A DNA stretch of 53,918 bases, taken from contig JAQURL010000008.1 of NCBI GenBank assembly GCA_028715625.1, positions 1 to 53,918 on the forward strand, given 5' to 3'. The stretch is from Candidatus Margulisiibacteriota bacterium (GTDB taxonomy: Bacteria > Margulisbacteria > Riflemargulisbacteria > GWF2-35-9). Within the stretch, counting starts at the first letter, position 1. Each line of letters begins with the position of its first letter. The notes beneath the pieces are model-generated. The model was not told where the DNA came from and searched no databases. It saw nothing but the letters and a program-made list of their open reading frames with translations. Positions 680 to 37,168 of this stretch are shown here, piece by piece. The position numbers and the translations under genes are program-made.

Positions 680-1069
680 TTAATTTTTAAAATTATAATG
701 ATTAAGGAATGAATATAATAATTGATGATTCCCGATTTTTAAAAGATGCAGGGTAATTTGCAGATAAATATCCAGCATCTTATCATTGATTACCTCAAAA
801 TCCACAGCTTTGGAAAACACGTTAACCATTCCGGATAAAGATAAATGACGTCTTCTGTCTATTTCATCTAAACTCTGGGCCAGATAAAGGAGCTGATTAA
901 GTTCTTCGACTGCTTTTTGTAGCTCCTGAAGTTCATTATTTTTACCAGTTGAAAGTTCAAGTACATGTAACATGATATCAAATAGAATTGCCCGGTTATA
1001 ACAATTAACCAGCTTTGCTAAATTTGCCACACCACGATTAGTTCCGGCAGAAATTATTTTTAAATTCAA
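680..1069 (-). CDS. Small helical protein of unknown function
   Basis: 129 residues, predicted mostly alpha-helical, with no signal peptide, membrane segment or motif that I recognise. The start is a TTG at 1067-1069 preceded by AAGGATAAAAG, a reasonable Shine-Dalgarno; the next in-frame Met is at residue 33. A stretch around residues 27-100 (helix, then a DEIDRRR motif, then helix) vaguely recalls the FliS flagellar chaperone in length and helical layout, but I cannot align key residues and do not call it. It lies upstream of leuS on the same strand but is separated from it by the leuS promoter. Confidence 0.55.
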   Translation of the reverse strand: MNLKIISAGTNRGVANLAKLVNCYNRAILFDIMLHVLELSTGKNNELQELQKAVEELNQLLYLAQSLDEIDRRRHLSLSGMVNVFSKAVDFEVINDKMLDIYLQITLHLLKIGNHQLLYSFLNHYNFKN

Positions 1070-12729: not shown

Positions 12730-13469
12730 TGATTAAAATATTTTACTACCGGATAATCCGGGTAACGAACATCAATATACTCAACCTTTTCGTTTTTTTC
12801 CGAAATTGCTTTCACCAGAGTTTTCAATGTTTTTAACTTCTTCTTAAAATCTCTTTCATCACCGAATTTTATTTCAAGCAAATCATTGGTCAATACCCTT
12901 ATGTCCTGGGGGTTAGTCAGATTAAATTTCAATCCTGTGTCCTTAAAAATACGGATGAGTATTTTTAAAGTTCCCTTGATCAGTGAACTGTATTCAGTTG
13001 GCAGAACGGTTAGGCCTTTGATGCTTTCCGGTGGTATGCCTGTGATTATTGGTAAATTACTGTATTCTGAAACAAAAACTACATTTTTGTCTTTGTTTAT
13101 GTTAATAATAACTCCGTCTTCATCAATCAGATAATTGTTGGGGTAACAAATTATACTCGCAAAAGGTGAGCGTTCCACTACTTTTATTTTTAAATAATTT
13201 TCAAACCAGTGCTTGCTGAATTTAATTTTCTTTAATTGAGGAATTTCATTTATCAGTACCTTCCGGGCTTTTCTCCTGGATAAAAGGAATAAATTCTCGA
13301 AGTGATTATTTGAGGCCACATCTATAATCCATTGTGAATCTACAATTTTGTTACCCGAGACGACTACTTTTTTAATCTTGAAAAGCGGAGAATAACCCAG
13401 AATTAAATAAATAAACGTAAATAGCAGTAAAAAAAGGAGTAATCTTCTAATAAATTTGGAACGTAGCAT
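12726..13469 (-). CDS. ftsQ: Cell division protein FtsQ/DivIB
   Basis: 247 residues: short basic N-terminus (MLRSKFIRR), one transmembrane helix (about 10-28), then a POTRA-like domain starting FKIKKVVVSGNKIVDSQWI and a beta domain. It is an essential bitopic divisome protein linking FtsA/FtsZ to septal wall synthesis. Primary sequence is poorly conserved in this family; topology, POTRA start and position between ddl and ftsA support the call. The start overlaps ddl by 23 nt and the stop overlaps gmhB by 4 nt. Confidence 0.88.
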   Translation of the reverse strand: MLRSKFIRRLLLFLLLFTFIYLILGYSPLFKIKKVVVSGNKIVDSQWIIDVASNNHFENLFLLSRRKARKVLINEIPQLKKIKFSKHWFENYLKIKVVERSPFASIICYPNNYLIDEDGVIININKDKNVVFVSEYSNLPIITGIPPESIKGLTVLPTEYSSLIKGTLKILIRIFKDTGLKFNLTNPQDIRVLTNDLLEIKFGDERDFKKKLKTLKTLVKAISEKNEKVEYIDVRYPDYPVVKYFNQ

Positions 13470-14343
13470 CGATTATCCTTTGTACCAGCTCCGGGAAACT
13501 TATACCCGCAGATTTTGCCTGAGCCGGAAGATCGCTTGTATCTGTCATTCCCGGTATCGTATTAAGTTCGAGGATATATGGAGTACCGTCATTGGTTAGT
13601 ATCATATCCACACGAACAGCGCCCCGGCAACCTATTACTCGATATGCTTCCAACGCTATATCGCGAATATTTTTCTCGATTTTTTCAGTTAAATGCGCAG
13701 GCAAAATGAAATCAGTAAGACCTTTGGTATATTTGGCTTCATAATCGTAGAACCTTTTTTTGGGAACCAGTTCCAGGATCGGAAAAATTTCGTCACCGAG
13801 AATACTGACGGTAAGCTCCCGTCCGGTTATATATTGCTCAACAAATATCTGAGTGTAATCTTTACTTAACTGTTTATATTCTGTGAGTAATTGCTTTTTG
13901 TCCTCAATAATAGCTACACCAATACTGGAACCCTCAAGCGTCGGTTTAATAATCTGTGGAAATTTTGTAACAAGATCAAGATCCTCGACGTTATTCAATT
14001 CTATAAAAGGCGCTGTCGGTAAATTGTGATAAATGAGTACCTTCTTGGTCAATACTTTGTTGCAGGCCAGAGCCGAGGCACAAATCCCTGATCCGGAATA
14101 AGGTATTTTCAGCCATTCCAGGACACCCTGGATTGATCCATCTTCGCCGCCGCGTCCATGCAAAGCTATAAATGCGAAGTCAATATCGGAAGGAATCTGG
14201 TCCTGTCTTGGGTCTATTCTGATAACATCATATCCCAGTTCCTGTAATGCTTTACTAACATTATTTCCTGATCTTAAGGATACTTCACGCTCAGACGAAA
14301 ACCCACCTGATAATACACCTATTTTTTTTATCTTTTTATTCAT
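13447..14343 (-). CDS. ddl: D-alanine--D-alanine ligase
   Basis: 298 residues, an ATP-grasp enzyme that makes the D-Ala-D-Ala dipeptide of peptidoglycan. Visible motifs are GVLSGGFSSEREVSLRSG at the N-terminus, FIALHGRGGEDGSIQG, KPTLEGSSIGV, and near the C-terminus LELNTIPGMTDTSDLPAQA. The ATG at 14341-14343 is preferred to the GTG just before it. The stop codon and trailing bases of the preceding gene form a hairpin at 14351-14380 immediately upstream, which may couple or limit translation. It overlaps ftsQ by 23 nt. Confidence 0.96.
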   Translation of the reverse strand: MNKKIKKIGVLSGGFSSEREVSLRSGNNVSKALQELGYDVIRIDPRQDQIPSDIDFAFIALHGRGGEDGSIQGVLEWLKIPYSGSGICASALACNKVLTKKVLIYHNLPTAPFIELNNVEDLDLVTKFPQIIKPTLEGSSIGVAIIEDKKQLLTEYKQLSKDYTQIFVEQYITGRELTVSILGDEIFPILELVPKKRFYDYEAKYTKGLTDFILPAHLTEKIEKNIRDIALEAYRVIGCRGAVRVDMILTNDGTPYILELNTIPGMTDTSDLPAQAKSAGISFPELVQRIIDATFQIY

Positions 14344-14350
14344 CACCTAC

Positions 14351-14380
14351 ATTGTAACTTAAGACAAACTTAAGGACAAT
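14351..14380 (-). promoter_or_regulatory. Hairpin spanning the stop codon just upstream of ddl
   Basis: Interrupted inverted repeat: ATTGT-aa-CTTAAG, 5 nt loop, CTTAAG-g-ACAAT. It contains the TAA stop (14370-14372) of the upstream unknown gene and ends 7 nt before the ddl ATG. There is no T-run, so it is not a classical terminator. A translational coupling element is possible. Confidence 0.35.
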
Positions 14381-15209
14381 GGGGAGGTAATTGACCTTTC
14401 ATTATGAGCCTGGGCATTTTGCTTTTTTCCATGTGTTGCTCCGGATTTACAACCGGAAGTATGGAAAGAGTATATGTTTCGGCTGCCGATTCCTCTGCAT
14501 ACAAAAATTTTTCTATATTTTTCACCTCATTATCCGACAAATTCATTTCTCCCAAATAAAATCTGATAATATTTCTCCTTTCACTGTCGATTTCCCAGGA
14601 CCTGATATCAAAATGAGGCAGACCATTATCATATTTCTCAAATATGGTACCTCTGGATTCTTCAATTGCATTTTTATTGCCCAGTGCTGACAATTTCAAT
14701 AAATGTATATTAAATGCCTCAACCACTGCCAGAGCTTTTTCATAATTCCTTTGTTCTTTATTAGTTATTGTTATGATCAATTTTTCGCCGGTGTCTTTGC
14801 TCTGAACAATTTCATGCTTGGAAAGTACCTGGCTCAATGTGATGTGCTCACCCTGATTGATTTGGTATTTGCCTATAAGATATCTGGTTGAATTTAATTG
14901 TTTTAGTTCCTCAGATGATAAATAATATTGGTTACTGTAAAATTTGAAGGGCCTTAGAAAATCCTGATAAAATTCTTCTATATTTTTTGAATTCAACCCA
15001 TCAGAGCCTCTAAAAATATCTATTTTTTCTTTAAATTCCTGATATTTAGTTAAATAAAAATTACAGGATTTTTTAGCATAATCAATTCTAAGGTCCAGCT
15101 TATCTAATAAATCCTGTTGTGTACCGGCCAAAATAATATCGCCGATACGATAGTTGATTAATTTGTTATTAACACCTGTCCTGTCTTTTTGTTTTTTTGA
15201 GCGAATCAC
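14370..15209 (-). CDS. Unknown protein in the dcw cluster (third of three)
   Basis: 279 residues from GTG at 15207-15209, which has GGAAGGAG 9 nt upstream. A longer reading from TTG at 15254 exists but lacks a ribosome site. No signal peptide or membrane helix; charged, mixed alpha/beta composition with helical stretches (for example around the DLRIDYAKKS segment). I recognise no family. It occupies, with the next two entries, the place where murE-F, mraY, murD, ftsW, murG and murC usually sit between ftsI and ddl. Co-directional and closely spaced with its neighbours, so probably one transcript. Confidence 0.7.
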   Translation of the reverse strand: MIRSKKQKDRTGVNNKLINYRIGDIILAGTQQDLLDKLDLRIDYAKKSCNFYLTKYQEFKEKIDIFRGSDGLNSKNIEEFYQDFLRPFKFYSNQYYLSSEELKQLNSTRYLIGKYQINQGEHITLSQVLSKHEIVQSKDTGEKLIITITNKEQRNYEKALAVVEAFNIHLLKLSALGNKNAIEESRGTIFEKYDNGLPHFDIRSWEIDSERRNIIRFYLGEMNLSDNEVKNIEKFLYAEESAAETYTLSILPVVNPEQHMEKSKMPRLIMKGQLPPHCP

Positions 15210-15259
15210 TTTAGCATACTCCTTCCTCTTTCTTCCTATAAATAATCGCCACAAATCGC

Positions 15260-15622
15260 TTATAATCTGCCCAGATAATCCTCCAGACGGTCTTGGACCT
15301 CAATAATTATTCTGATAGCTGACAACTGCATAAAAATTTCCGGTTTATATTCTCTATATAAATCCTGAAAAATCATGGAGATATGCCCAAGATAATCACG
15401 GTCCAGAGCATTCCCTTGGTCATCATAAAACAGATTTTTCGCGATTTTTCTATCTCTTTCGGACAAACCCATCTCTTCGAATAATCTCTTTTCCGTATCA
15501 TTAAATTCTGCCGAATATTTTCCGAAATATGAAGCCCTTACTGCTGTTGCGTAAAAACAATCCGCTCCAACATTATTGTAAGTTTGTTTTTCAATAACAT
15601 TGCTAATTAATTTGGTTTTCAT
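15260..15622 (-). CDS. Small unknown protein in the dcw cluster (second of three)
   Basis: 120 residues, soluble and mostly helical, beginning MKTKLISNVIEKQTYNN, with an acidic, aromatic-rich C-terminal half (DLYREYKPEIFMQLSAIRII). Strong Shine-Dalgarno AAAGGAG 5-6 nt before the ATG at 15620-15622. I recognise no domain. It starts 15 nt after the preceding unknown gene and is separated from the next by about 50 nt (or overlaps its upstream spacer if the longer TTG start is used). Confidence 0.7.
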   Translation of the reverse strand: MKTKLISNVIEKQTYNNVGADCFYATAVRASYFGKYSAEFNDTEKRLFEEMGLSERDRKIAKNLFYDDQGNALDRDYLGHISMIFQDLYREYKPEIFMQLSAIRIIIEVQDRLEDYLGRL

Positions 15623-15637
15623 AAATACTCCTTTATT

Positions 15638-16747
15638 TTATCTTTGATTTTTTTGAACTTTTTTCATAACTCCTTCCATTTCAGCATCTAGGTTTTTGCC
15701 GGATGCCTGCTGTAACTGCTCTTGATATTGTTGAAAATTTATATAGGTACTGTCAAACCATTCACCGGCTATACCCTGCACGGAAATAACCTGCCCTTTT
15801 TTTGTATCTAAAATCACATAATCACCGGCTTTTACGTGGATCTCGGCGTTGGGTGTCTTTATAATTACATCATCTTTAATAGATTCAGGTATTTTCATTG
15901 CATAACTAGGAACAAGCTTATAGCCCGATTTCCATGATGTATCAGCATCAATTCCATACGCCTCCTTTACAAACTTCTGGTCTGAAACATATTCATTGTA
16001 AAGTTTCTCCTGCCCGCTATTCTGATTGACAACAAATTTGTTATTCTCATCAAAATAGCCTTTAACTTGCTGACCTGCCAGAATATGCCCTGCCGGATAG
16101 GTTATGGGGCTGGCATTTTTCAGGATAACATCACCCTCTTTTATTGTAGCTACCCCACCGCCCCATGTTTCCTGAATAGGAATACCTTTTTCATCGACAC
16201 CTGTGTAGGTAGTCAATTCATTACCCGGTCTGAACCTTGCTTCCTGATGTTTTTTACTTGCCAATAGTATACCGGTTTCAGTTTTCTTAATAACTTTTTC
16301 CAATATAGGAAAACTTGTGGTAATTCCTGATTTAATCAAATCTACATTTTTATCTATATAAACATCAAGAAGTCCGTTGTTGGAATATTTCCCCTGAGAC
16401 TTTGTTAAAACACCGGCTAACAACTTATTGGCGATCTGCCCTATAGCTTTTGCCCGCATCATGTTTCCTTCTCCTGCCTCGAATTCAGCATCTTCCTTTA
16501 ACTCAGCATAGCGAGAAACTATTTTCATTGCCTGGTCTACATCAAATGTACCAGAATATATTTCTCCCTTATAACCCCATTTGATTTCAACTTTCCCCTC
16601 CAAATATTTTATATTTACATTTGGTATTGATTTTAGAATGCTTCCATATTTTTTCCCAACAATGCAATCCTTCCCTAGAAATTCTGTCCACTTAAACTCA
16701 CTGATTCTTATATCTCGCTCACTTATACCGATAACTTTGAAATACAT
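15638..16747 (-). CDS. Unknown protein in the dcw cluster (first of three)
   Basis: 369 residues from ATG at 16745-16747, which has AAAGGAGGA 4-5 nt upstream; a 13-residue longer reading lacks such support. No signal peptide or membrane helix. The second half holds two beta-rich segments with a GDxVIL core (IKEGDVILKN and VKAGDYVILDTKKG) and ends with a Gln/Lys-rich helix. The second segment and its closing WFDSTY recall short beta modules in phage-associated proteins, but that is a weak impression. I recognise no family. Likely first gene of an operon with the two genes that follow. Confidence 0.7.
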   Translation of the reverse strand: MYFKVIGISERDIRISEFKWTEFLGKDCIVGKKYGSILKSIPNVNIKYLEGKVEIKWGYKGEIYSGTFDVDQAMKIVSRYAELKEDAEFEAGEGNMMRAKAIGQIANKLLAGVLTKSQGKYSNNGLLDVYIDKNVDLIKSGITTSFPILEKVIKKTETGILLASKKHQEARFRPGNELTTYTGVDEKGIPIQETWGGGVATIKEGDVILKNASPITYPAGHILAGQQVKGYFDENNKFVVNQNSGQEKLYNEYVSDQKFVKEAYGIDADTSWKSGYKLVPSYAMKIPESIKDDVIIKTPNAEIHVKAGDYVILDTKKGQVISVQGIAGEWFDSTYINFQQYQEQLQQASGKNLDAEMEGVMKKVQKNQR

Positions 16748-17019: not shown

Positions 17020-18702
17020 TTAACGATTTGAAGTAATTACTATCACATCTTCTGTTAAACGCTTATCGGGAGGTAATTGCTTGTAGCGTAAAACCTGCTG
17101 AGCAATATTCTTAAAAACTGGGACAGCCGTCATTGAAGCGAATTTATTTGTTTGGGGATCGGTTATCACAACGAGCATAATATAAGCTGGTCTGGAAATT
17201 GGAAAAATCCCTAAGAATGAATTATTATAACTGCCAGGCAAATATGCATTATTTTCCTGAACAAAACGCCGGGCTGTACCTGTTTTGCCGCCGATTGAGA
17301 ACCCTTTGATCCGGGTTAATGTGCCGGTACCTTCCTCAACCACCCCATGCATCATATCGAGCATTTGTTTAGCTGTCCTTGATGAAAAAATCCGTTTGGA
17401 TTTTTTGGGATGATGATGCTTGTCAATAATTATATAAGGTTGAACCATATAACCTTCATTGCCGAAAACTGAAGCTGCTTTGATCAGTTGAATAGGAGTT
17501 ACCGCAATGCTATATCCGAATGAAATGCGACTCAAGTCAACCTGCGACCAATTCGTATATGGATTTAAAATTCCTGAATTTTCTCCGGGAATATTCATCT
17601 GGGAAACCTTGCCAAATTCCAGCAGTGATAGATACTTATAAAGCTTATCGCGGCCCAGCATCAATCCTATTTTAGCAGCGCCAACATTTAGTGATTTCTC
17701 AATAATTTCCGTAACACTTTTACTGGAAGCCTCTTCTTTATGGGCTTCTTCAATGATTGTACCATTCACTACCAGCTTTTCTGGGATATAAATTAATTGA
17801 GAAATATTAATTACTTTTTCTTCCAATGCTGCTGCTACAGTGAAAAGTTTCATAACACTGCCCGGCTCAATAGCCATGGCGATGGCGTTATTCTGAAAGT
17901 ACTGCGGATTATATTCTGAATAATGATTCGGATCGAAATAGGGATAATTGGCCATCCCTAAAATTTCACCGGTTTTAATGTCCATCATAATCGCAACCGC
18001 TGATTTTGCCTGGAATGTTTCTACTGCTTTCTGCAGTTCGTTTTCCATCATGAATTGAATGTTCTTGTCGATTGTTAACTGTAATTTTTTGCCGTTTTTT
18101 GCCGGATAAATTTTCTGATTATAACTGTAAATAAATTTCCCGGATGGGTCACTTTCCATAATCATCGAACCCGGTGAGCCTTTTAAAATATTATTGTAAT
18201 AGTGCTCCAGACCGCTGGCTCCATCATCATCAATATTTACAAATCCCAGCAACTGCGCAGCGTTAAATTTACCAGGGTATGCCCTTTTGGTATCAGGTAA
18301 AAAATAAATTCCGGTTATATCAATTTTATCTTTAATTTCCTGCGGGACTTTACGCTTTACCCAGACAAAACGTCTGCTGGTATCCCAGATTTGGGGGTTA
18401 CTTACATTCAGATATTCGGAAATGGCAGCCGCGGCTTTTTGCTTATCCCTGATAAGAAAGGGGTCAGCGTATACGGAATATGCTTTTACAGAGGTGGCCA
18501 ATAATTGACCGTTGCGATCTATTATATCTCCCCTTACAGGATTTAGTTTAATGATCCTCTCCTGCTGGTCACGGGATTTTTTTTTGTAAAACTCATGTTT
18601 GATGACCTGCAGATAAAATAACCGCAGTATAATAATAAAAAATAAACTTGCTATTAATAAAAAAACCAGCCAAATCTTATAGTTGTATTTATTCGTAGAC
18701 AT
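17020..18702 (-). CDS. ftsI: Septal penicillin-binding protein FtsI (PBP3 type)
   Basis: 560 residues, a class B transpeptidase that crosslinks septal peptidoglycan. One N-terminal transmembrane helix (about 10-30), a dimerisation domain with RGDIIDRNGQLLA (57-69), and a transpeptidase domain with SxxK at Ser282-Lys285 (EPGSVMK), SLN at 337-339 and KTG at 473-475. No PASTA repeats, so it is FtsI-like rather than SpoVD-like. The start overlaps ftsL by 14 nt. The order rsmH-ftsL-ftsI is canonical. Confidence 0.95.
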   Translation of the reverse strand: MSTNKYNYKIWLVFLLIASLFFIIILRLFYLQVIKHEFYKKKSRDQQERIIKLNPVRGDIIDRNGQLLATSVKAYSVYADPFLIRDKQKAAAAISEYLNVSNPQIWDTSRRFVWVKRKVPQEIKDKIDITGIYFLPDTKRAYPGKFNAAQLLGFVNIDDDGASGLEHYYNNILKGSPGSMIMESDPSGKFIYSYNQKIYPAKNGKKLQLTIDKNIQFMMENELQKAVETFQAKSAVAIMMDIKTGEILGMANYPYFDPNHYSEYNPQYFQNNAIAMAIEPGSVMKLFTVAAALEEKVINISQLIYIPEKLVVNGTIIEEAHKEEASSKSVTEIIEKSLNVGAAKIGLMLGRDKLYKYLSLLEFGKVSQMNIPGENSGILNPYTNWSQVDLSRISFGYSIAVTPIQLIKAASVFGNEGYMVQPYIIIDKHHHPKKSKRIFSSRTAKQMLDMMHGVVEEGTGTLTRIKGFSIGGKTGTARRFVQENNAYLPGSYNNSFLGIFPISRPAYIMLVVITDPQTNKFASMTAVPVFKNIAQQVLRYKQLPPDKRLTEDVIVITSNR

Positions 18703-22864: not shown

Positions 22865-24886
22865 TTAATCAAACTTTATACGTGTCAAACGACCCATATT
22901 GAAATCCGGCTCAGCGCCATTGTCTATCTGTGCCCAGGTTAACAATCCCTGGTTCAATCCAACAGTGTAAGGTATTTTATAAGCTACCTGTCCTTCATGC
23001 TGTATGGAGCCTGGACTGCGTGAAGAATTGCCGTCAGCCCATGTCTCCCTATTCTGGGCAAAAATGTTGAAAGCAGGAGAATCCAGATCCACTAAAGCTT
23101 TTTCAATGACAGATGTTTCTTTGCCTTTTCTGACTTCTGTATGTATAAGACTGGAAAGCGGAATACCCAGAGGCTTACCTCCTGATAAAAGGTCGGTCAC
23201 AGAAGCCATGTAGCCAGTATGGCTATTCAAAACCAGCGAACCTGCTGTCAACCCCAGTATAAAGGAATAATTGGCATCAAATCTGGCGGGAGCCCCGCAT
23301 CTGGTTTCGTATCCGACAAATTTATCCTGTGGATCGAACTTGGAATCTATAAATTTTTTCATTTCTTTTTCAGAAAAACCCAACATATTTGCAAGATCAT
23401 ATTTTTCCGGCTGAGCTTGCATATCCTTAATCTTTTTTAGGACTAATTTCATTAATAGTTTTTCCGTAGGTATCTGAGAAACTTTCAGGTTACCATGATC
23501 ATCCCTGTCCAATAACATCGCGTCCACAATATCATCAGGAAAAGTACGGAATAAGTCAGCTGAATTCGATGATATTTCCGGAGAAGTACAAATGAAATTC
23601 TTTTTCTCGGCAATCGTCATGGTCGCTTGTTCCAGAAAAAATTCTATATCTTCATCTCTATAATCCTTAAGTTCAGGTACAGCCTCTTTTAAAACAGTTG
23701 TTAAAATCTTCATGTCTGCTGAAAGAGCATTAATTTTACCGAACTCATTCCAATCAGTTTCTTCCTTTTTATTAATTAGTTTCTTCCCGAGTAATATGTT
23801 TTTTATTTCCACATGTTTTCCCGACAATTTATTCAGTTCACTGATCAATTTTTTTACTTCAGGTATAAACTCGATAACTCCCTCAGGAATAATCGCAACA
23901 CCATAATTTTTTTCTTTAGCCATTCTTCCGGCAATAATATTGGACATGTAACTTACGACATCATCCATGGACATTTTTTTCTTGCCTATCTCTTCTGAAA
24001 TTAAAGTAATATGAGGTCTTGTCTGCAAAGCAACCTCTAGGGTTAAATGCGAGGCGCTTCTACCCATAAGCTTTACAAAAAACCAATATTTTTTCTGAGA
24101 CGCGCGATCTGTCAGCAAATTACCTACGAGTTTCGCCATTACTCTGGCAGCTGTATAAAAACCAAATGATATAGGCAACAAACTGTTTCCTTTATCATTT
24201 ATTTGCAAGTCGCCATCAATAGTTTTAGGGACACCGATTACAGTGCAGCCTTTATTCAGATTACCTTTTTTGTATTCTCCAGTCAGATACTCGGCAAGTT
24301 CAGCTGCATTAGTATTAGAATCATCTCCTCCGACTACGACTATTCCATCCAAACCTAATTTTTTTACTGTATTTTTTACACTTTCAAATTTTTCCGGTTT
24401 ATCAATTTTAGTTCTGCCAGTCCCCAAAAAATCAAAGCCACCAGTATTTAACAGCAATTCCATGTTATCGGCAGTAACCTTAAAGGCATTTCCTTTTATC
24501 AAACCATCAGGACCATTAGTGAGACCGTAAAGCGTATTACCTTTAAGTACTTTGAATAAACCTCCTAAAACATTATTTCCACCTGATGCAGGCCCACCAG
24601 AAAAAATAACCCCGACTTTTTTACCGGTAATGTTTGCAGTTTGCGCTTTTTCTCCTTCCAAAGCTTCTGTTTGCAGGTTGGGAAATTTTGTAGCAACTAC
24701 TTCCGCCGATTTTATTGTCATTGCCTGATCTGTTTTTACGAAATTTATAGGAATAATTTCTCCTGACTCATCAAAAAAAATTTCAGGAACTGCCAGTGGT
24801 AAAGTTCTCAATAGAGAATCTATCGGTGCGCTCCGTTTTGCGTCGACATATCCGTTCGGTATCGCTGCTATTATCTTTTTATTCAT
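22865..24886 (-). CDS. pfp: Pyrophosphate-dependent 6-phosphofructokinase (long type)
   Basis: 673 residues from ATG at 24884-24886, with AGGAGGAAAG directly upstream; a start 7 codons earlier is less likely. Motifs: FSGGPASGG (95-103), GGDDSNT (186-192), PKTIDGDLQ (220-228) and LMGRSASHLTLEVALQ. The Asp after GGD (Asp189) and the Lys in PKTID (Lys221) are the two determinants of pyrophosphate rather than ATP use. The long form belongs to the clade that includes plant, spirochaete and chlamydial PFPs. It phosphorylates fructose 6-phosphate reversibly with PPi and so saves ATP in fermentative glycolysis. The start overlaps the previous unknown gene by 8 nt. Confidence 0.93.
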   Translation of the reverse strand: MNKKIIAAIPNGYVDAKRSAPIDSLLRTLPLAVPEIFFDESGEIIPINFVKTDQAMTIKSAEVVATKFPNLQTEALEGEKAQTANITGKKVGVIFSGGPASGGNNVLGGLFKVLKGNTLYGLTNGPDGLIKGNAFKVTADNMELLLNTGGFDFLGTGRTKIDKPEKFESVKNTVKKLGLDGIVVVGGDDSNTNAAELAEYLTGEYKKGNLNKGCTVIGVPKTIDGDLQINDKGNSLLPISFGFYTAARVMAKLVGNLLTDRASQKKYWFFVKLMGRSASHLTLEVALQTRPHITLISEEIGKKKMSMDDVVSYMSNIIAGRMAKEKNYGVAIIPEGVIEFIPEVKKLISELNKLSGKHVEIKNILLGKKLINKKEETDWNEFGKINALSADMKILTTVLKEAVPELKDYRDEDIEFFLEQATMTIAEKKNFICTSPEISSNSADLFRTFPDDIVDAMLLDRDDHGNLKVSQIPTEKLLMKLVLKKIKDMQAQPEKYDLANMLGFSEKEMKKFIDSKFDPQDKFVGYETRCGAPARFDANYSFILGLTAGSLVLNSHTGYMASVTDLLSGGKPLGIPLSSLIHTEVRKGKETSVIEKALVDLDSPAFNIFAQNRETWADGNSSRSPGSIQHEGQVAYKIPYTVGLNQGLLTWAQIDNGAEPDFNMGRLTRIKFD

Positions 24887-25634
24887 TTTTCTTTCCTCCT
24901 GATTCATTTGTTATTAGGTTTAAAAATCTTAAATTTGTAAAATGATTTCCCATGCGCACACGTGGACAACTTGAAACACCTGCAAATTCCGGATATACTC
25001 TCTCCTCCTTAGGAATCCATAAGAGCATGGGAATTAGCATATATCTTTCTTTCAGGCTGCGCAGTTCCAGTTCACGCATCTGATGATCCGGGATGTAAGC
25101 CATTAGAGACAATGCTTTATCATTTTCCATAACAACATAAACATCAGCGCTTTTCGCGTCTTCTATATTAGTTTCTTCATCTAAATCATTTAGAATATTT
25201 ATGCTCATCTTATATAAATTGGGGGTAATCTGTTTAAATCCATCCTCTAACAGCCTTGCTAATAAACTTGTTCCTATCAAATTGACTTCTTTCTGAAAGG
25301 GTTCCAGATAACTGGCTTTGACTCCATATCCGAAATACTCAAGCGCAGTTGACGGACCATAACTTATTTCCAGCACAAAATCATCGGGTCTGGCCGCAAG
25401 ATTCACTCTTTTCAGTAATTCCGGCTTATAAGTGATTCCTGAAATATTATAAGCAAGATCAAAATATTTCTTAAATCCGCCGTTATCCTCAAGTTGAACT
25501 ATCTGAAAACCGTTCTTAAAAAAATTAAGCTCGCCCAGACGTTCGTAGCCATGCCTAAGAAAAGCTGCCTGTAATTCCGGAAACGGTAAACTATATATAA
25601 TCTTATTTTTTTGAGCTACTATCTTACAAAACAT
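24879..25634 (-). CDS. Unknown protein coupled to the PPi-phosphofructokinase
   Basis: 251 residues, soluble, mixed alpha/beta, with no signal peptide or catalytic motif I can name. It begins MFCKIVAQKNKIIYSLPFPE from ATG 25632-25634 (a TTG one codon earlier is possible) and ends in a basic tail (NESGGKKNE) that overlaps the PFK start by 8 nt. The tight coupling suggests a function linked to sugar phosphate metabolism or its control, but nothing in the sequence proves it. Confidence 0.7.
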   Translation of the reverse strand: MFCKIVAQKNKIIYSLPFPELQAAFLRHGYERLGELNFFKNGFQIVQLEDNGGFKKYFDLAYNISGITYKPELLKRVNLAARPDDFVLEISYGPSTALEYFGYGVKASYLEPFQKEVNLIGTSLLARLLEDGFKQITPNLYKMSINILNDLDEETNIEDAKSADVYVVMENDKALSLMAYIPDHQMRELELRSLKERYMLIPMLLWIPKEERVYPEFAGVSSCPRVRMGNHFTNLRFLNLITNESGGKKNE

Positions 25635-30244: not shown

Positions 30245-32104
30245 ATGCAAATAAATCATAAAATTGTAAGTTTCAGGATAATCCTGGGGTTGAAAGCCCG
30301 GGGTTTAGCTGAACTTCTGAGAACGGCTATACAGGATGACTGTGATAAATTTAGCCTGCTATTCCCACAGAAAACCGGTCAAATAAGGGCCGATCTGATA
30401 AATCTTATTGAGGTCCTCCGCTTTAATTATTTTAATCGGCTCTACAAAAAAAATAATATTAAAAAATTGACTGGTTACTATAAGCAAACTCTTACTGAAG
30501 TTAATGAAATGCTTGAATCAACTAATAAATCATTGGGAAGTGATCAATTTCAGCATGGGAATGATTTGGTCGAGAAGATTGCTGAAGTTGATCTGCAGAA
30601 AGCTAAATGTCTGAAATTGGAGGAAAAACTATTAGCATTAAATCTTTTTCTAAAAAATTTGAACTTATTTAACAAAAATGATTTAACCAGATTATCCAAA
30701 CTTTTAAACGGGTCTAAAGGTACAGAGAAACAACTACTTAATTTGAACCCTGATTTTATGGATTTTTATTTGCAACAATCCATTGAAGAAATAGTTTTAT
30801 CACCTCTGTCTCAAAAAATTTATGACGATTATCAATCAGGGAAAAGACAGGAAAGAATTGATAACTCCACAACAAGGGTTTCCAGAATTCTGTTCTTCGT
30901 ACAGAGCGAAAAATTGCCCATGTATAAATTCATATACAATAAGGAAGCAGGCACTATATATTTAAAAGAACCCTTGCTAATAGATGAAATCAATGAACTT
31001 ATTTCTAATTTCTTCGAGCACGAGGATATTATAAACATAAGGAAAACAAATAAACTTGTTCAGGAGTATTTTTTTTCCGACCAGGCAATAAAAAGAATAC
31101 TTCTCATATTACATTCTGACCCTGCCCTCGATGCTGCTTATAATTTTGTTAATAATTTTATAAAACCCGATCTGGATACAAAAATTAATACCGAGATAAC
31201 ACAATTTCTGAATGACATTTCTGCGAAAATGCCAACTTTTAACAATGCCTTTGATGATTTCTTAAAAAAATTACATAGCATTGTTGAAATGTATAAAAAT
31301 ATCAATTCATTTGTGAATGGATTTAGAAATATGAAGAATATGAGTGGGGCGGCAATACTCATATTTGATTTTCTAGTGCATATTAAGAAAATATATACCG
31401 AACAGTTTAAAGAAATTATCAAAGCCGACCTGGATTGGTTAAAAAAATACCAATCAGTGCTCACCTTAGAACTGCAGGAAGGAAAAATGAGCTACTCCAA
31501 TTTAGAAAGTAATCTGAGAGAACTGAAAGGAAAGCTCAATTCTGATACTCTTCGACAAGAAATAGAAGTATTGAATGATAAACATTCTTTTATTTCGGAA
31601 CAATTAAATATTCTTGCTCAGAAAGCTGATGAACTTACCATGGAATCTATTGAAGCTAAAATCATTGAGCTCTATGACAAAAAAATAAAAGAAATTGGGA
31701 AAAAACTATTAAATCCCATAGCTATACATAACAAAAACGGGAATAACAAACAGGATGAAGCTATTAATACTGAACAAAATTTTGACGAAATTTTTGATTG
31801 GAATGAAATTACGCCCAATGTTATTTATACAGTTAAAAATGAGCTGAATGTTATTACCAGGTTCAAGTTTACAGCAAAAATACTGGAAGAAATCAATAAA
31901 TATCAACCTCACATCTTGCAAAGATTATTAAACGCTGCTAAAAACGGTATGGTAGCAAAAGTCGGGGAACAAGGCATCAAAGCCTACACCAAAGAACCTA
32001 TAATGAGTATAAAACTTATTAAGGAAAGTTTTCGCATTTTAGGGGATGTTAAGCATGACTCCGAAGGGGTATATACGGTATTCTATAAATTGGACACAAA
32101 ATAA
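30245..32104 (+). CDS. Large helical protein of unknown function with distinct C-terminal module
   Basis: 619 residues from ATG at 30245 with GAGGAA just upstream (a GTG four codons earlier is possible). No signal peptide or membrane helix. About residues 1-490 are predicted mainly helical, with coiled-coil-like stretches (for example LRELKGKLNSDTLRQEIEVL). After a polar Asn/Lys-rich linker (about 500-520) comes a compact C-terminal part of about 100 residues ending SFRILGDVKHDSEGVYTVFY. I recognise no family. The layout of a long helical stalk plus a small end domain is seen in secreted effectors and structural proteins alike, so no function is assigned. It faces the convergent unknown gene at 32122. 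Confidence 0.7.
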   Translation: MQINHKIVSFRIILGLKARGLAELLRTAIQDDCDKFSLLFPQKTGQIRADLINLIEVLRFNYFNRLYKKNNIKKLTGYYKQTLTEVNEMLESTNKSLGSDQFQHGNDLVEKIAEVDLQKAKCLKLEEKLLALNLFLKNLNLFNKNDLTRLSKLLNGSKGTEKQLLNLNPDFMDFYLQQSIEEIVLSPLSQKIYDDYQSGKRQERIDNSTTRVSRILFFVQSEKLPMYKFIYNKEAGTIYLKEPLLIDEINELISNFFEHEDIINIRKTNKLVQEYFFSDQAIKRILLILHSDPALDAAYNFVNNFIKPDLDTKINTEITQFLNDISAKMPTFNNAFDDFLKKLHSIVEMYKNINSFVNGFRNMKNMSGAAILIFDFLVHIKKIYTEQFKEIIKADLDWLKKYQSVLTLELQEGKMSYSNLESNLRELKGKLNSDTLRQEIEVLNDKHSFISEQLNILAQKADELTMESIEAKIIELYDKKIKEIGKKLLNPIAIHNKNGNNKQDEAINTEQNFDEIFDWNEITPNVIYTVKNELNVITRFKFTAKILEEINKYQPHILQRLLNAAKNGMVAKVGEQGIKAYTKEPIMSIKLIKESFRILGDVKHDSEGVYTVFYKLDTK

Positions 32105-32121
32105 GCTACAGTAATAACTGT

Positions 32122-32781
32122 TTAGTCGCCAAAATTTCTGTGCAGTATATCAATAAGATTAATAAAACGGGAAGTATAAAGTTTTCTGTCTATAAAAACA
32201 GAAAATTTGTCCGGATACAAATGTCTGTTCATAACAATATTATTGAGCTTATTTATCAGCACTTTATAAGCCTGAGCATAAGGAAATCTATCAGGTTTTA
32301 ATAACATATCTCTATATATTGTCCAGAATCTCTCCAGAAAAAGCAGTCCCTTATATGGGTCCTGGCCTCTCCAGAAAGGCTCAGCATCTTTCTGCACTAC
32401 CTTAAAAAAATTAAACTCTGCTCTTTGCCTGTATTTTTCAAATTTTGACCTTTGGAAAAAATCAGCAGATGAAAGAGGTATATTCTGTCCATACTTGTAA
32501 CCCATACGCAAGGCTATTTTCAGTATACTTTCCGGGAAGTTGTTTTCATTTAATAACAGAAGTTCTGAATTCTTTAATCGTGGTAATTTTTGTTGCGTTT
32601 CATGATGCAGAGGTTTATCCCGAAAAACATCAAAAAGATAAGGCAAATTTTCACCAAAAATACCTTTTAATTTTGCAATATCGCCGTTTCTCAGAGCTAT
32701 ACGGCTGTCTCTGGAAAGCTCGCGCCAACCAAGGTAACTGGCGTCTGAATATAAAGAGATAATTTTATGACAGGAAAACAT
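32122..32781 (-). CDS. Unknown soluble protein
   Basis: 219 residues, rich in aromatic and basic residues, mostly helical, with no signal peptide or recognised motif (segments such as RMGYKYGQNIPLSSADFFQR and NIVMNRHLYPDKFSVF). Weak GAAG ribosome site before the ATG at 32779-32781. It lies 37 nt after the EF-hand-like gene on the same strand, so the two probably share a transcript. Convergent with the 619-residue gene, 17 nt apart, with no obvious terminator. Confidence 0.65.
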   Translation of the reverse strand: MFSCHKIISLYSDASYLGWRELSRDSRIALRNGDIAKLKGIFGENLPYLFDVFRDKPLHHETQQKLPRLKNSELLLLNENNFPESILKIALRMGYKYGQNIPLSSADFFQRSKFEKYRQRAEFNFFKVVQKDAEPFWRGQDPYKGLLFLERFWTIYRDMLLKPDRFPYAQAYKVLINKLNNIVMNRHLYPDKFSVFIDRKLYTSRFINLIDILHRNFGD

Positions 32782-34305: not shown

Positions 34306-35745
34306 ATGAAAAAAGTAGCAGTAAGCATAATTGGCGCAGCGATTCTAATATTTATCCTCGGGGGATGCGCCCAGAGATTAGGGCTGGTTAACAATTCATC
34401 ACCGGCTGACTCCATTGCACGTTTTGATATAAGTGGTGCACAAAGTTTATTCATTGCAAACGCAGTGAATAAAAGTGTTAGTACCGGCATGTCGGCTAAG
34501 GCAGCCAAAGTAGCCTCCAGTAACAATGGTAACAGTGATAACAGCGGCAACAATGGTAATGGTAATGGCAACAACGGCAATGGCAATGGTAATAGCGGCA
34601 CTCCTGCAACAGTGACACCTGAACCTGTTGTTACGCCAGTAACAACAGTAACCCCGGTTCCTGAAGATATAACGACAGAAGTCTCGGGAACCAAATCATT
34701 ATACAAATTGATGCCTGATGGTACAGTCCAGCCTGTTGGGTTCTATGATCCATATAATAATTTAATTCAGTTTCAGGCTGAAGTAGTTGGAATTAAAAAT
34801 ATTAATAAGGATTATTTATCTGTCAAATTCCTGGACAGCGCCACCTCCGGTAGTTTTTTATATTTTCTGGTAAATAAAACAACCGGTATTGCCTATTTAT
34901 ATGGAACCAATATTAATGAAAACACTTCCATAACTTATCCCAGTGATGGCACAAAATACTACTTTATAAACAACCAGGGACGTTTGGTTAGACTGGACTT
35001 TACGGTATCCAGTACTACAGGTATTAAAATGACAGTTCTGCCGGCTCTTAAAGGTGTAAACTACGCCACAGCCAAAATAGATAAAAATGAAAATATTATT
35101 GTAGGAGACAAGTTCATAAAACAAACAACAGGTGGTTATGAATACCTGACTGTTGCTTCCCAGGGCAAAGATGTCTATGTAAGCAAATCCGGAGATTTTA
35201 ATTACTATTCCGGTGCTCAACTTTTCAAACTATGTTTGGATGCCAATAATGCCGTACAAAGCATAGCTATTACTACAACTCAGGGTACAGACTACCAGTT
35301 TGTAGCCACAATAGAAAGCAATACTCCCTTACTCACAAATACAGATTACGGTTATTATTCATTTCCAAAATTAAGTTCGTCCGGTGTAGCGCAAAGTTTG
35401 CTGATAGCCAAATACAACGCAAACACAATGGCCATTAATACAATTGAGTATCCCAAAACAGCAAAAGCTGTTGCAGGCAATCAACTACTCTACGTTTTGA
35501 AAGACAACAAAACTATAGAAAAAGTGGATACTAATTTAACCATACAAAGTTTCTACACAACTAATGAATATGATATAACCAGCGTAGCAGCGAATAATGC
35601 CAACGAAGTGTACTTCTACGGACTAAGATATAGCGATGGTGCTTATATCGCCGCTGTTCTGAATCCTGATGGCACTCAAAAAACCATTACAACTTCTGTT
35701 ACTGTAGCTGAAGTTTCTTATCTGACACCGCTTAAAACTAAATAA
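34306..35745 (+). CDS. Lipoprotein of tandem pair, copy 1 (with Asn/Gly insert)
   Basis: 479 residues. Lipoprotein signal with lipobox LGGC (acylated Cys21), then about residues 70-97 of Asn/Gly/Ser low-complexity repeat and a Pro/Thr-rich linker (PEPVVTPVTTVTPVPED). The remaining about 370 residues carry many beta strands with KIDKNENIIVGDKFI-type repeats, suggestive of a propeller or similar repeat fold. The last 380 residues are highly similar to copy 2. Predicted to sit in the outer membrane or face the periplasm. Function unknown. A rho-independent terminator follows. Confidence 0.75.
   Translation: MKKVAVSIIGAAILIFILGGCAQRLGLVNNSSPADSIARFDISGAQSLFIANAVNKSVSTGMSAKAAKVASSNNGNSDNSGNNGNGNGNNGNGNGNSGTPATVTPEPVVTPVTTVTPVPEDITTEVSGTKSLYKLMPDGTVQPVGFYDPYNNLIQFQAEVVGIKNINKDYLSVKFLDSATSGSFLYFLVNKTTGIAYLYGTNINENTSITYPSDGTKYYFINNQGRLVRLDFTVSSTTGIKMTVLPALKGVNYATAKIDKNENIIVGDKFIKQTTGGYEYLTVASQGKDVYVSKSGDFNYYSGAQLFKLCLDANNAVQSIAITTTQGTDYQFVATIESNTPLLTNTDYGYYSFPKLSSSGVAQSLLIAKYNANTMAINTIEYPKTAKAVAGNQLLYVLKDNKTIEKVDTNLTIQSFYTTNEYDITSVAANNANEVYFYGLRYSDGAYIAAVLNPDGTQKTITTSVTVAEVSYLTPLKTK
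34514..34602 (+). repeat. Asn/Gly-coding microsatellite-like tract
   Basis: Degenerate tandem repeat of AAYGGY-type hexamers inside lipoprotein gene 1, coding an Asn-Gly-rich spacer. It is absent from copy 2, which passes directly from the signal region to the conserved domain. In-frame slippage could vary its length between strains. Confidence 0.75.
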
Positions 35746-35902: not shown

Positions 35903-37168
35903 ATGAAAAAAGTAGTAAGTTTAGCAAGCATCGCAGTTCTGATGTTTATCCTTGGGGGATGCGCCCAAAAATTAGGTCTGGTGAATGATTCTTCACCGGC
36001 AGATTCTATAGCTCGTTTTGATATCAGCGGGGCTCAAAGTGTATTTATAGCCAGTGAGGTACCTAAAGGAGCCGCTACTGCCAAAGGGCTGTCTATTAAA
36101 GCAAATGCCAATAAAAAACTGCTCTATAAGATGTTGCCTGATGGCACAGTCCAACAAGTAGGATTTTATAATACCAAGACAAATGTTATATCTTTTACGG
36201 CTGAAGCAGTGGATATAAAAACTATTAATAGTGACTATTTGTCTATTAAATTTCTTGATAATACTACTTCCGGCAGTTATTTGTATTTTCTTGTAAATAA
36301 AACTACCGGTTACGCTTATCTGTATGGAACAAATATTAATGAAAAAACATCCATAACTTATCCCAGTGACGGTACAAAATATTACTTTGTAAATGATCAG
36401 GGTCGTTTGGTTAGACTTGACTTTACAGCTGCCAACACTACAGGCATTAAAATGACAGTTCTGCCGGCTCTTAAAGGTGTAAACTATGCCACAGCCAAAA
36501 TAGATAAAAATGAAAACATCATTGTCGGTGATAAATTTATCAAGCAGACAACCGGTGGTTATGAATACCTGACTGTTGCTTCCCAGGGCAAAGATGTCTA
36601 TGTAAGCAAATCCGGAGATTTTAATTACTATGCAGGAGCTCAGCTTTTCAAACTGTGTCTGGATGCCAATAATACCGTACAAAGCATAGCTATTACCACG
36701 ACCCAGGGAACAGATTATCAATTTGTCGCTACTATAGAAAGCAATACACCTTTAATAACCGACTCAGATTATAGTTATTACTCATTTCCCAAATTAAGCG
36801 CTTCCGGTGTAGCTCAAAGTACACTTATAGCTAAATATAATGCGAATACTCTGGCTATAAATACAATTGAGTATCCCAAAACAGCCAGAGCCATTGCCGG
36901 CAATCAGCTACTCTATGTCTTAAAAGATAACAAAACTATAGAAAAAGTAGATACTAACCTTGCTATACAAAGTTTTTATACAACAAATGAATACGACATA
37001 ACCAGCGCTGCTGCAAACAATGCTAACGAAGTATATTTCTATGGTCTGAGATATAGCGACGGGGCTTATATCGCTGCAGTTCTGAATCCTGATGGCACTC
37101 AAAAATCCATTACAACTTCTGTTACTGTGGCTGAAGTATCTTACCTGACACCGCTTAAAACTAAATAG
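35903..37168 (+). CDS. Lipoprotein of tandem pair, copy 2
   Basis: 421 residues. Signal with lipobox LGGC (acylated Cys20), then an N-terminal block shared with copy 1 (QKLGLVNDSSPADSIARFDI). It lacks the Asn/Gly and Pro/Thr insert, and has a C-terminal region of about 340 residues nearly identical in protein sequence to copy 1. DNA identity is patchy: perfect runs alternate with segments in which almost every third base differs. Likely surface or periplasmic; function unknown. Ends at a bidirectional terminator. Confidence 0.75.
   Translation: MKKVVSLASIAVLMFILGGCAQKLGLVNDSSPADSIARFDISGAQSVFIASEVPKGAATAKGLSIKANANKKLLYKMLPDGTVQQVGFYNTKTNVISFTAEAVDIKTINSDYLSIKFLDNTTSGSYLYFLVNKTTGYAYLYGTNINEKTSITYPSDGTKYYFVNDQGRLVRLDFTAANTTGIKMTVLPALKGVNYATAKIDKNENIIVGDKFIKQTTGGYEYLTVASQGKDVYVSKSGDFNYYAGAQLFKLCLDANNTVQSIAITTTQGTDYQFVATIESNTPLITDSDYSYYSFPKLSASGVAQSTLIAKYNANTLAINTIEYPKTARAIAGNQLLYVLKDNKTIEKVDTNLAIQSFYTTNEYDITSAAANNANEVYFYGLRYSDGAYIAAVLNPDGTQKSITTSVTVAEVSYLTPLKTK

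Follow-up and report, generated by a model that had tools for sequence, protein, structure and literature searches.

In kinetoplastids, the short N-terminal peptide PTS2 of glycosomes and peroxisomes (consensus [RK][LVI]x5[HQ][LA]) marks glycolytic enzymes, some of which are second copies existing beside untagged ones. Bacterial microcompartments (BMC) rely on short terminal encapsulation peptides that direct enzymes into a protein shell. Split versions of the dcw cluster of wall and division genes are, for their part, common in bacteria. These systems provide the nearest comparisons for the locus described here, a trio of genes (P3, P2 and P1) located between ftsI and ddl in contig JAQURL010000008.1 of a Candidatus Margulisiibacteriota bacterium (contig C8, 53,918 bases, hereafter the window; the genome comprises 2.63 Mb in 127 contigs and is 97% complete). 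The trio forms a small operon that entered the ftsI-ddl junction recently and within one lineage, after the mur block had already moved away, and two of its products begin with a short peptide, M-x-x-K-I-I-[S/A], found on many proteins of this genome, which we name the Margulisbacterial KII[S/A]-tagged class. The reading as a whole—the trio was inserted, P2 and P3 belong to a class whose tag is selected as a peptide, and the tag docks or targets proteins to a shared site—has, in our estimate, an even chance of being correct.

The tag resembles PTS2 in being a short N-terminal peptide on glycolytic enzymes, including second copies beside untagged ones, but its sequence is different, its host is a bacterium, no import machinery is known for it, and non-metabolic proteins carry it too. 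The PTS2 consensus is not recovered: neither H nor Q is among the eight commonest residues seven positions after the lysine, and at the eighth position L and A show no enrichment (0.9x and 1.2x). With the BMC encapsulation peptides the tag shares its short length and terminal position; however, at four to seven residues of the extreme N-terminus it appears, by inspection, too short for an amphipathic helix, and the BMC shell domain was found in none of four genomes. An N-terminal lysine followed by hydrophobic residues is also reminiscent of Sec signal peptides, yet no hydrophobic core comes after the tag: a transmembrane-like 19-mer within the first 60 residues occurs in 0 of 95 tagged and 61 of 346 untagged proteins. 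As in other split dcw clusters, the mur genes lie apart from ftsI and ftsQAZ; the difference is that here the ftsI-ddl junction is common to an order, and an unrelated operon arrived at the scar later, in one genome.

The three genes of the trio are genuine. These minus-strand open reading frames (ORFs) have good ribosome sites (AAAGGAGGATAAA-ATG for P3 and AAAGGAGTATTT-ATG for P2), are separated from each other and from ddl by gaps of only 15, 50 and 23 nucleotides, and show in-frame codon-usage scores of 0.18–0.23 per codon, equal to those of conserved genes, whereas the remaining five frames score close to zero or below it. P1 was originally listed as a 294-residue form starting from TTG at 15254, but its best ribosome site, AGGAAGGAG, precedes the GTG at 15209, which is most likely the true start. 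The resulting 279 codons were never reached in 500 first-order Markov samples of the region, where the longest ORF had a median of 83 and a maximum of 239 codons. No terminator-like site was found in the gap between ftsI and P3, no transmembrane-like stretch in P1, P2 or P3, and no mur gene between ftsI and ddl. None of the three proteins matches Pfam or NCBIfam at E<=0.001 or PHROGs better than E 0.05, and even at E<=1 no wall or division family appears in Pfam or NCBIfam. An earlier note on this DNA had described three unassignable soluble proteins with strong ribosome sites and operon spacing where mur genes would be expected; that description holds, and the profile searches returned no known family, hence no confident match to a known unrelated operon.

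What has become of the mur genes? Their loss is ruled out, as the block is intact elsewhere in the genome in the order murE-murF-mraY-murD-ftsW-murG-murC-murB, divided between two contig ends: C25 closes with murE and the first part of murF, C27 with the remainder of murF together with mraY, murD, ftsW, murG, murC and murB. In six of six relatives of the same order (G001–G004 from the same family, G005 and G006), ftsI is followed directly by ddl without the trio, although the contig of G001 stops within ddl, and a member of the same class, G007, retains a contiguous mraY-murD-ftsW-murG-murC-murB-ddl-ftsQ-ftsA-ftsZ. This synteny suggests that the mur block most likely left the dcw cluster in the ancestor of the order and that the trio entered the scar later. 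The adjacency of ftsI and ddl in all six relatives, the intact block elsewhere and the narrow distribution of the trio thus establish an insertion, and because the split of the cluster is older, nothing was replaced. The earlier note was therefore right in the first of its two alternatives, in which the mur genes had moved and an unrelated operon had been inserted, and wrong in presenting the trio as a replacement of the block; it also overlooked the N-terminal tag that links the trio to many other proteins.

Two further features of these sites can be recorded. The ends of C25 (L012 11165-11950) and C27 (L013 1-537) both stop within murF, and their overlap differs slightly in the manner of a strain variant. 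A 15-nucleotide direct repeat with 14 identical positions occurs at 14379-14393, in the end of P1, and at 17065-17079, in the end of ftsI; similarity stops at its flanks, and it could be an insertion mark or, at such length, a product of chance.

The distribution of the trio is narrow. P1 and P2 were found only in this genome out of 95 searched, and P3 in two, the second being a distant relative, G032, in which the homologue lies away from ddl on a contig other than that of the dcw cluster. Its C-terminal domain is 53% identical to that of P3, its N-terminus is different, and it has no Pfam family at E<=1. The repeat-like domain of P3 has its relatives within the same genome, among tagged proteins of contig C12 (39% identity, residues 29-101 of the 382-residue form; 30% by blastp, E 8e-5, to L014:7346-8593). 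Predicted structures of P3, from a two-sequence alignment, and of P1, from a single sequence, have a mean pLDDT of 33. Four adjacent, similar-looking proteins without assigned function are encoded close to the P3 homologue in G032 (L015 3-4916).

The starts of P2 (MKTKLIS) and P3 (MYFKVIG) both fit the rule by which we define the class, M-x(1-4)-K-[IVLT]-[IVL]-[AS, rarely G] at the start codon. The search with P3 also matched contig C12, where adjacent orphans start with MKNKIIS and MLNKVIA, and many orphan proteins in the examined data begin in the same manner. In a gene sample of 499,835 bases, chosen blind to the motif except for the C12 stretch and yielding 371 genes with a rough caller, K[IVL][IV][SAGT] occurs at residue 4 in 13 genes, versus 0.30 expected from its internal rate, and at residues 9–11 in none. 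When the 634 ATG starts preceded by a ribosome site are considered, 18 ORFs carry M-x(1-4)-K[IVLT][IVL][AS], compared with 0, 2, 1 and 3 for four permutations, and with 2, 1 and 0 ORFs when the lysine is replaced by E, R or N, respectively. An unsupervised scan of residues 4–7 ranks [KR][ILVM][ILVM][AG] first and [KR][ILVM][ILVM][ST] second. The strict DNA pattern for M-x-x-K-I-I-[A/S] has 71 matches in the whole genome, versus 4 for the permuted and 1 for the reversed pattern, and 50 of the 52 matches in the examined stretches of this genome begin an ORF of at least 90 amino acids. One tag-like string, VNNKLIN at residues 28–34 of the TTG form of P1, was left uncounted, its first codon being GTT and not a start codon.

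Codon choice within the tag is ordinary: its Lys, Ile, Ser and Ala codons follow genome usage (p 0.095–0.95), and 75 distinct 12-nucleotide spellings are found in 95 tagged genes. Conservation therefore acts at the level of the peptide, a DNA-level cause being ruled out by the codon usage, and the statistics indicate that the tag is selected as a peptide rather than as a DNA element. The 95 tagged proteins were obtained from 112 motif-bearing ORFs by removing 17 by hand, namely starts within other genes, GroEL, truncated duplicates, and proteins of the lipoprotein or signal-peptide kind. Lost along with these were two genuine members of the class, the phosphofructokinase (PFP) of the window and L014:8595-10403, which had been entered with an internal start, the shortest one that matched. 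The set is enriched by design, its stretches having been picked around pattern matches, and some of its members have no clear ribosome site; in the motif-blind stretches, 26 of 371 genes are tagged.

The tagged proteins are predicted to be soluble, with a transmembrane-like segment in 3 of 95, versus 89 of 346 untagged genes. They fall into 74 similarity clusters, one of them containing 18 ankyrin-type proteins, and 48 of the 95 genes adjoin another tagged gene. Clusters of tagged ankyrin-type proteins are seen in L122, L123, L136 and L137.

Family scans took in P2, P3 and 51 further tagged proteins from this genome, a set smaller than the 95, plus 10 proteins from relatives. In this genome many have no family, and those identified include glucose-6-phosphate isomerase (755 bits), phosphoglycerate mutase (iPGM; 690 bits), pyrophosphate-dependent phosphofructokinase (595 bits), phosphoglucomutase, a triosephosphate isomerase (TIM)-aldolase fusion, a PfkB kinase, a class III fructose-bisphosphatase adjoining an inositol-phosphatase-type protein, and a second, divergent phosphoglycerate kinase (PGK). 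An NAD-salvage operon (L129 136-4370) is tagged on all three of its genes, which encode a nicotinate phosphoribosyltransferase-like protein, nicotinamidase and NAD synthase; an NAD-kinase-like protein and a fusion of pantetheine-phosphate adenylyltransferase with dephospho-CoA kinase are tagged as well. The tagged PGK (162 bits) coexists with an untagged one (552 bits) and an untagged glyceraldehyde-3-phosphate dehydrogenase (GAPDH; 442 bits), and an untagged TIM is present at contig C63. The iPGM is single-copy and tagged. Tagged proteins of the relatives include glycogen synthase, branching enzyme, a ROK glucokinase-like and a phosphoenolpyruvate-synthase-like protein in G002, a GAPDH-like protein in G007 and serine ammonia-lyase in G006, several of these assignments scoring under curated cut-offs.

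When the remaining 37 of 38 genomes were compared, a single full-length relative of the TIM-aldolase fusion emerged, a protein of G007 with 42% identity that is also tagged (GTG start, VNNKIIA) and has tagged neighbours. The lysine, histidine and glutamate that we take to be catalytic in TIM are, by inspection, kept in both fusions. Counts of the strict pattern against its permutation are 20/4 in G006, 16/2 in G002, 10/2 in both G005 and G004, 10/4 in G007, 4/2 in G003 and 3/1 in G001; outside the class they reach 12/2 in G034, 10/5 in G043 and 8/1 in G020, with 0–4 matches in each of the other nine of 20 genomes. In the examined stretches, G002 has 10 of 12 matches, and G006 has 10 of 11, that begin an ORF of at least 90 amino acids. 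The sequence comparisons thus place the tag on firm ground in this genome and in G002 and G006, an orthologue lends it support in G007, and elsewhere it is weak.

What could be the role of such a peptide? Most likely, it docks proteins onto, or targets them to, a metabolic assembly not described before. Proteins with no other relationship, including much of the glycolytic pathway and the NAD-salvage enzymes, would be brought by the tag to one shared intracellular place. P2 and P3 would be accessory members of the assembly, P3 joining it via both its tag and its repeat domain, and the trio would share an operon with ddl only through the site of its landing. A bolder proposal, possible but in our opinion doubtful, likens the system to the glycosome. 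In this bacterium a compartment or scaffold not described so far would receive, through the seven-residue N-terminal peptide M-x-x-K-I-I-S/A, much of glycolysis and gluconeogenesis (in a relative, enzymes of glycogen metabolism as well), along with dedicated enzymes supplying NAD and CoA. More than 100 proteins in all (extrapolated from the 26 of 371), P2 and P3 included, would be sent there, while untagged housekeeping copies would remain cytosolic, and the tag would be present across the order and in G007 on some orthologous enzymes. No published description of such a tag was found in open-licence literature on Margulisbacteria, Termititenax, Marinamargulisbacteria, and bacterial organelles or glycolytic targeting, nor do the accessible parts of PMC6349859 and PMC6784892 describe one.

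Several observations weigh against this interpretation. Within the trio itself, P1 has no tag, and P3 carries G at the last tag position, a rare variant (7 of 112). The PF00936 shell domain, which a control search matched in 2 of 14 named genomes, is absent from the four genomes already mentioned, which speaks against a classical microcompartment. Many of the tagged products, such as those of the ankyrin and radical SAM types, phospholipase D and a histidine kinase, are unconnected with sugar metabolism, and the apparent glycolytic theme comes from the list of identified clients. In the tagged PGK some of the residues that bind substrate are missing; of those presumed to form its active site some are kept and others absent. 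Tagging also does not appear to be fixed across relatives: none of the 12 relatives in which the start of iPGM could be read has a tag there (two further loci have no readable frame), so that the tag can apparently be added to an existing enzyme, and GlgB, tagged in G002, has no match in this genome. In nine other genomes, only 3 of 20 pattern matches begin an ORF of at least 90 amino acids (one of two each in G004, G005 and G020; none of two in G001, G028, G032 and G043; none of three in G003 and G034), which makes the counts outside the order (G020, G034, G043) weak.

Might the tag instead be a secretion signal? The tagged proteins, P2 and P3 among them, would then be effectors exported, for example, to a partner or host cell, which would suit a fast-evolving, lineage-specific class containing ankyrin, phospholipase D and endonuclease/phosphatase-type proteins, and a related Margulisbacterium is indeed resident within placozoan cells according to PMC6784892. 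However, a single-copy housekeeping iPGM, PFP and a histidine kinase would make poor effectors, and no secretion system is tied to the tag, though no search was aimed at such systems; we consider export unlikely. Less likely still, the motif might do no more than favour efficient translation initiation or stable proteins, with no partner involved. Genes of AT-rich genomes commonly have many lysine codons near their start, but permuting the motif, which leaves its composition unchanged, yields no enrichment, synonymous codons within the tag are free to vary, and G001, of the same family, has only three pattern matches.

Other explanations concern the trio alone. It might be an ordinary orphan cargo cassette, borne by a phage or plasmid, in which the tags of P2 and P3 are coincidental; the sporadic distribution of P1–P3, the slightly low GC content of P1 and P2 (8th and 16th percentile) and one weak partial match of P1 to a viral contig (32% over residues 2–80) would agree with such an origin. 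Yet P3, the member of the trio compared with phage and plasmid records, has no relative there, its pattern matches in wider genome contigs and viral contigs were not confirmed, its N-terminal domain is common to other tagged proteins, and two adjacent tags are improbable by chance, so that we give this account little credence. A role of the trio as wall or division factors peculiar to the lineage, which the earlier note had offered as its other alternative and which its operon spacing between ftsI and ddl would suit, is highly improbable. The note's question whether the trio always accompanies ddl-ftsQ is answered in the negative by all six same-order clusters, from which it is absent, and by the separate contig of the P3 homologue in G032. 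We reject a wall or division role on this synteny, and the comparison indicates that P1–P3 are not conserved factors of either kind.

The genes at the ftsI-ddl junction are therefore recent arrivals and not wall factors. Should the tag prove to be a sorting or docking signal, it would constitute a short portable address borne, in the examined part of the genome, by some 74 groups of unrelated proteins, divergent second copies of glycolytic enzymes among them, and metabolism would be organized without a known shell or receptor.

Features of the trio locus and other tagged genes in the window (positions in the window; minus denotes the reverse strand)
Feature	Position	Strand	Remarks
ftsI	17020..18702	-	Upstream flank of the insert; family matches
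Gap between ftsI and P3	16748..17019	-	272 nucleotides, AT-rich, 28% GC
P3	15638..16747	-	369 amino acids; first trio gene; tagged, modular; ORF with AAAGGAGG site and codon usage, no family
P3 N-terminal tag MYFKVIGI	16724..16747	-	Motif fit with G at last position
P3 residues 20–81, repeat-like domain	16505..16690	-	Common to tagged proteins on contig C12
P3 C-terminal domain	15710..16393	-	53% identity to G032 protein with another N-terminus
P2	15260..15622	-	120 amino acids; second trio gene; tagged; 1 of 95 genomes
P2 N-terminal tag MKTKLISN	15599..15622	-	Motif fit
P1	14370..15209	-	279 amino acids from GTG; start untagged; 1 of 95 genomes
ddl	13447..14346	-	Downstream flank of the insert; family matches
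Pyrophosphate-dependent phosphofructokinase, tag MNKKIIA	22865..24886	-	Catalytic domain from about residue 90
Tagged orphan, MQINHKIVS	30245..32104	+	619 amino acids
Tagged orphan, MFSCHKIIS	32122..32781	-	219 amino acids; without clear ribosome site
Tagged ORF without assigned family	680-1069	-	TTG start
Tagged ORF without assigned family	24879-25634	-	

Elsewhere in the window, two tandem lipoprotein-like genes on the plus strand (34306-35745 and 35903-37168) have C-terminal halves that are near-identical by eye.
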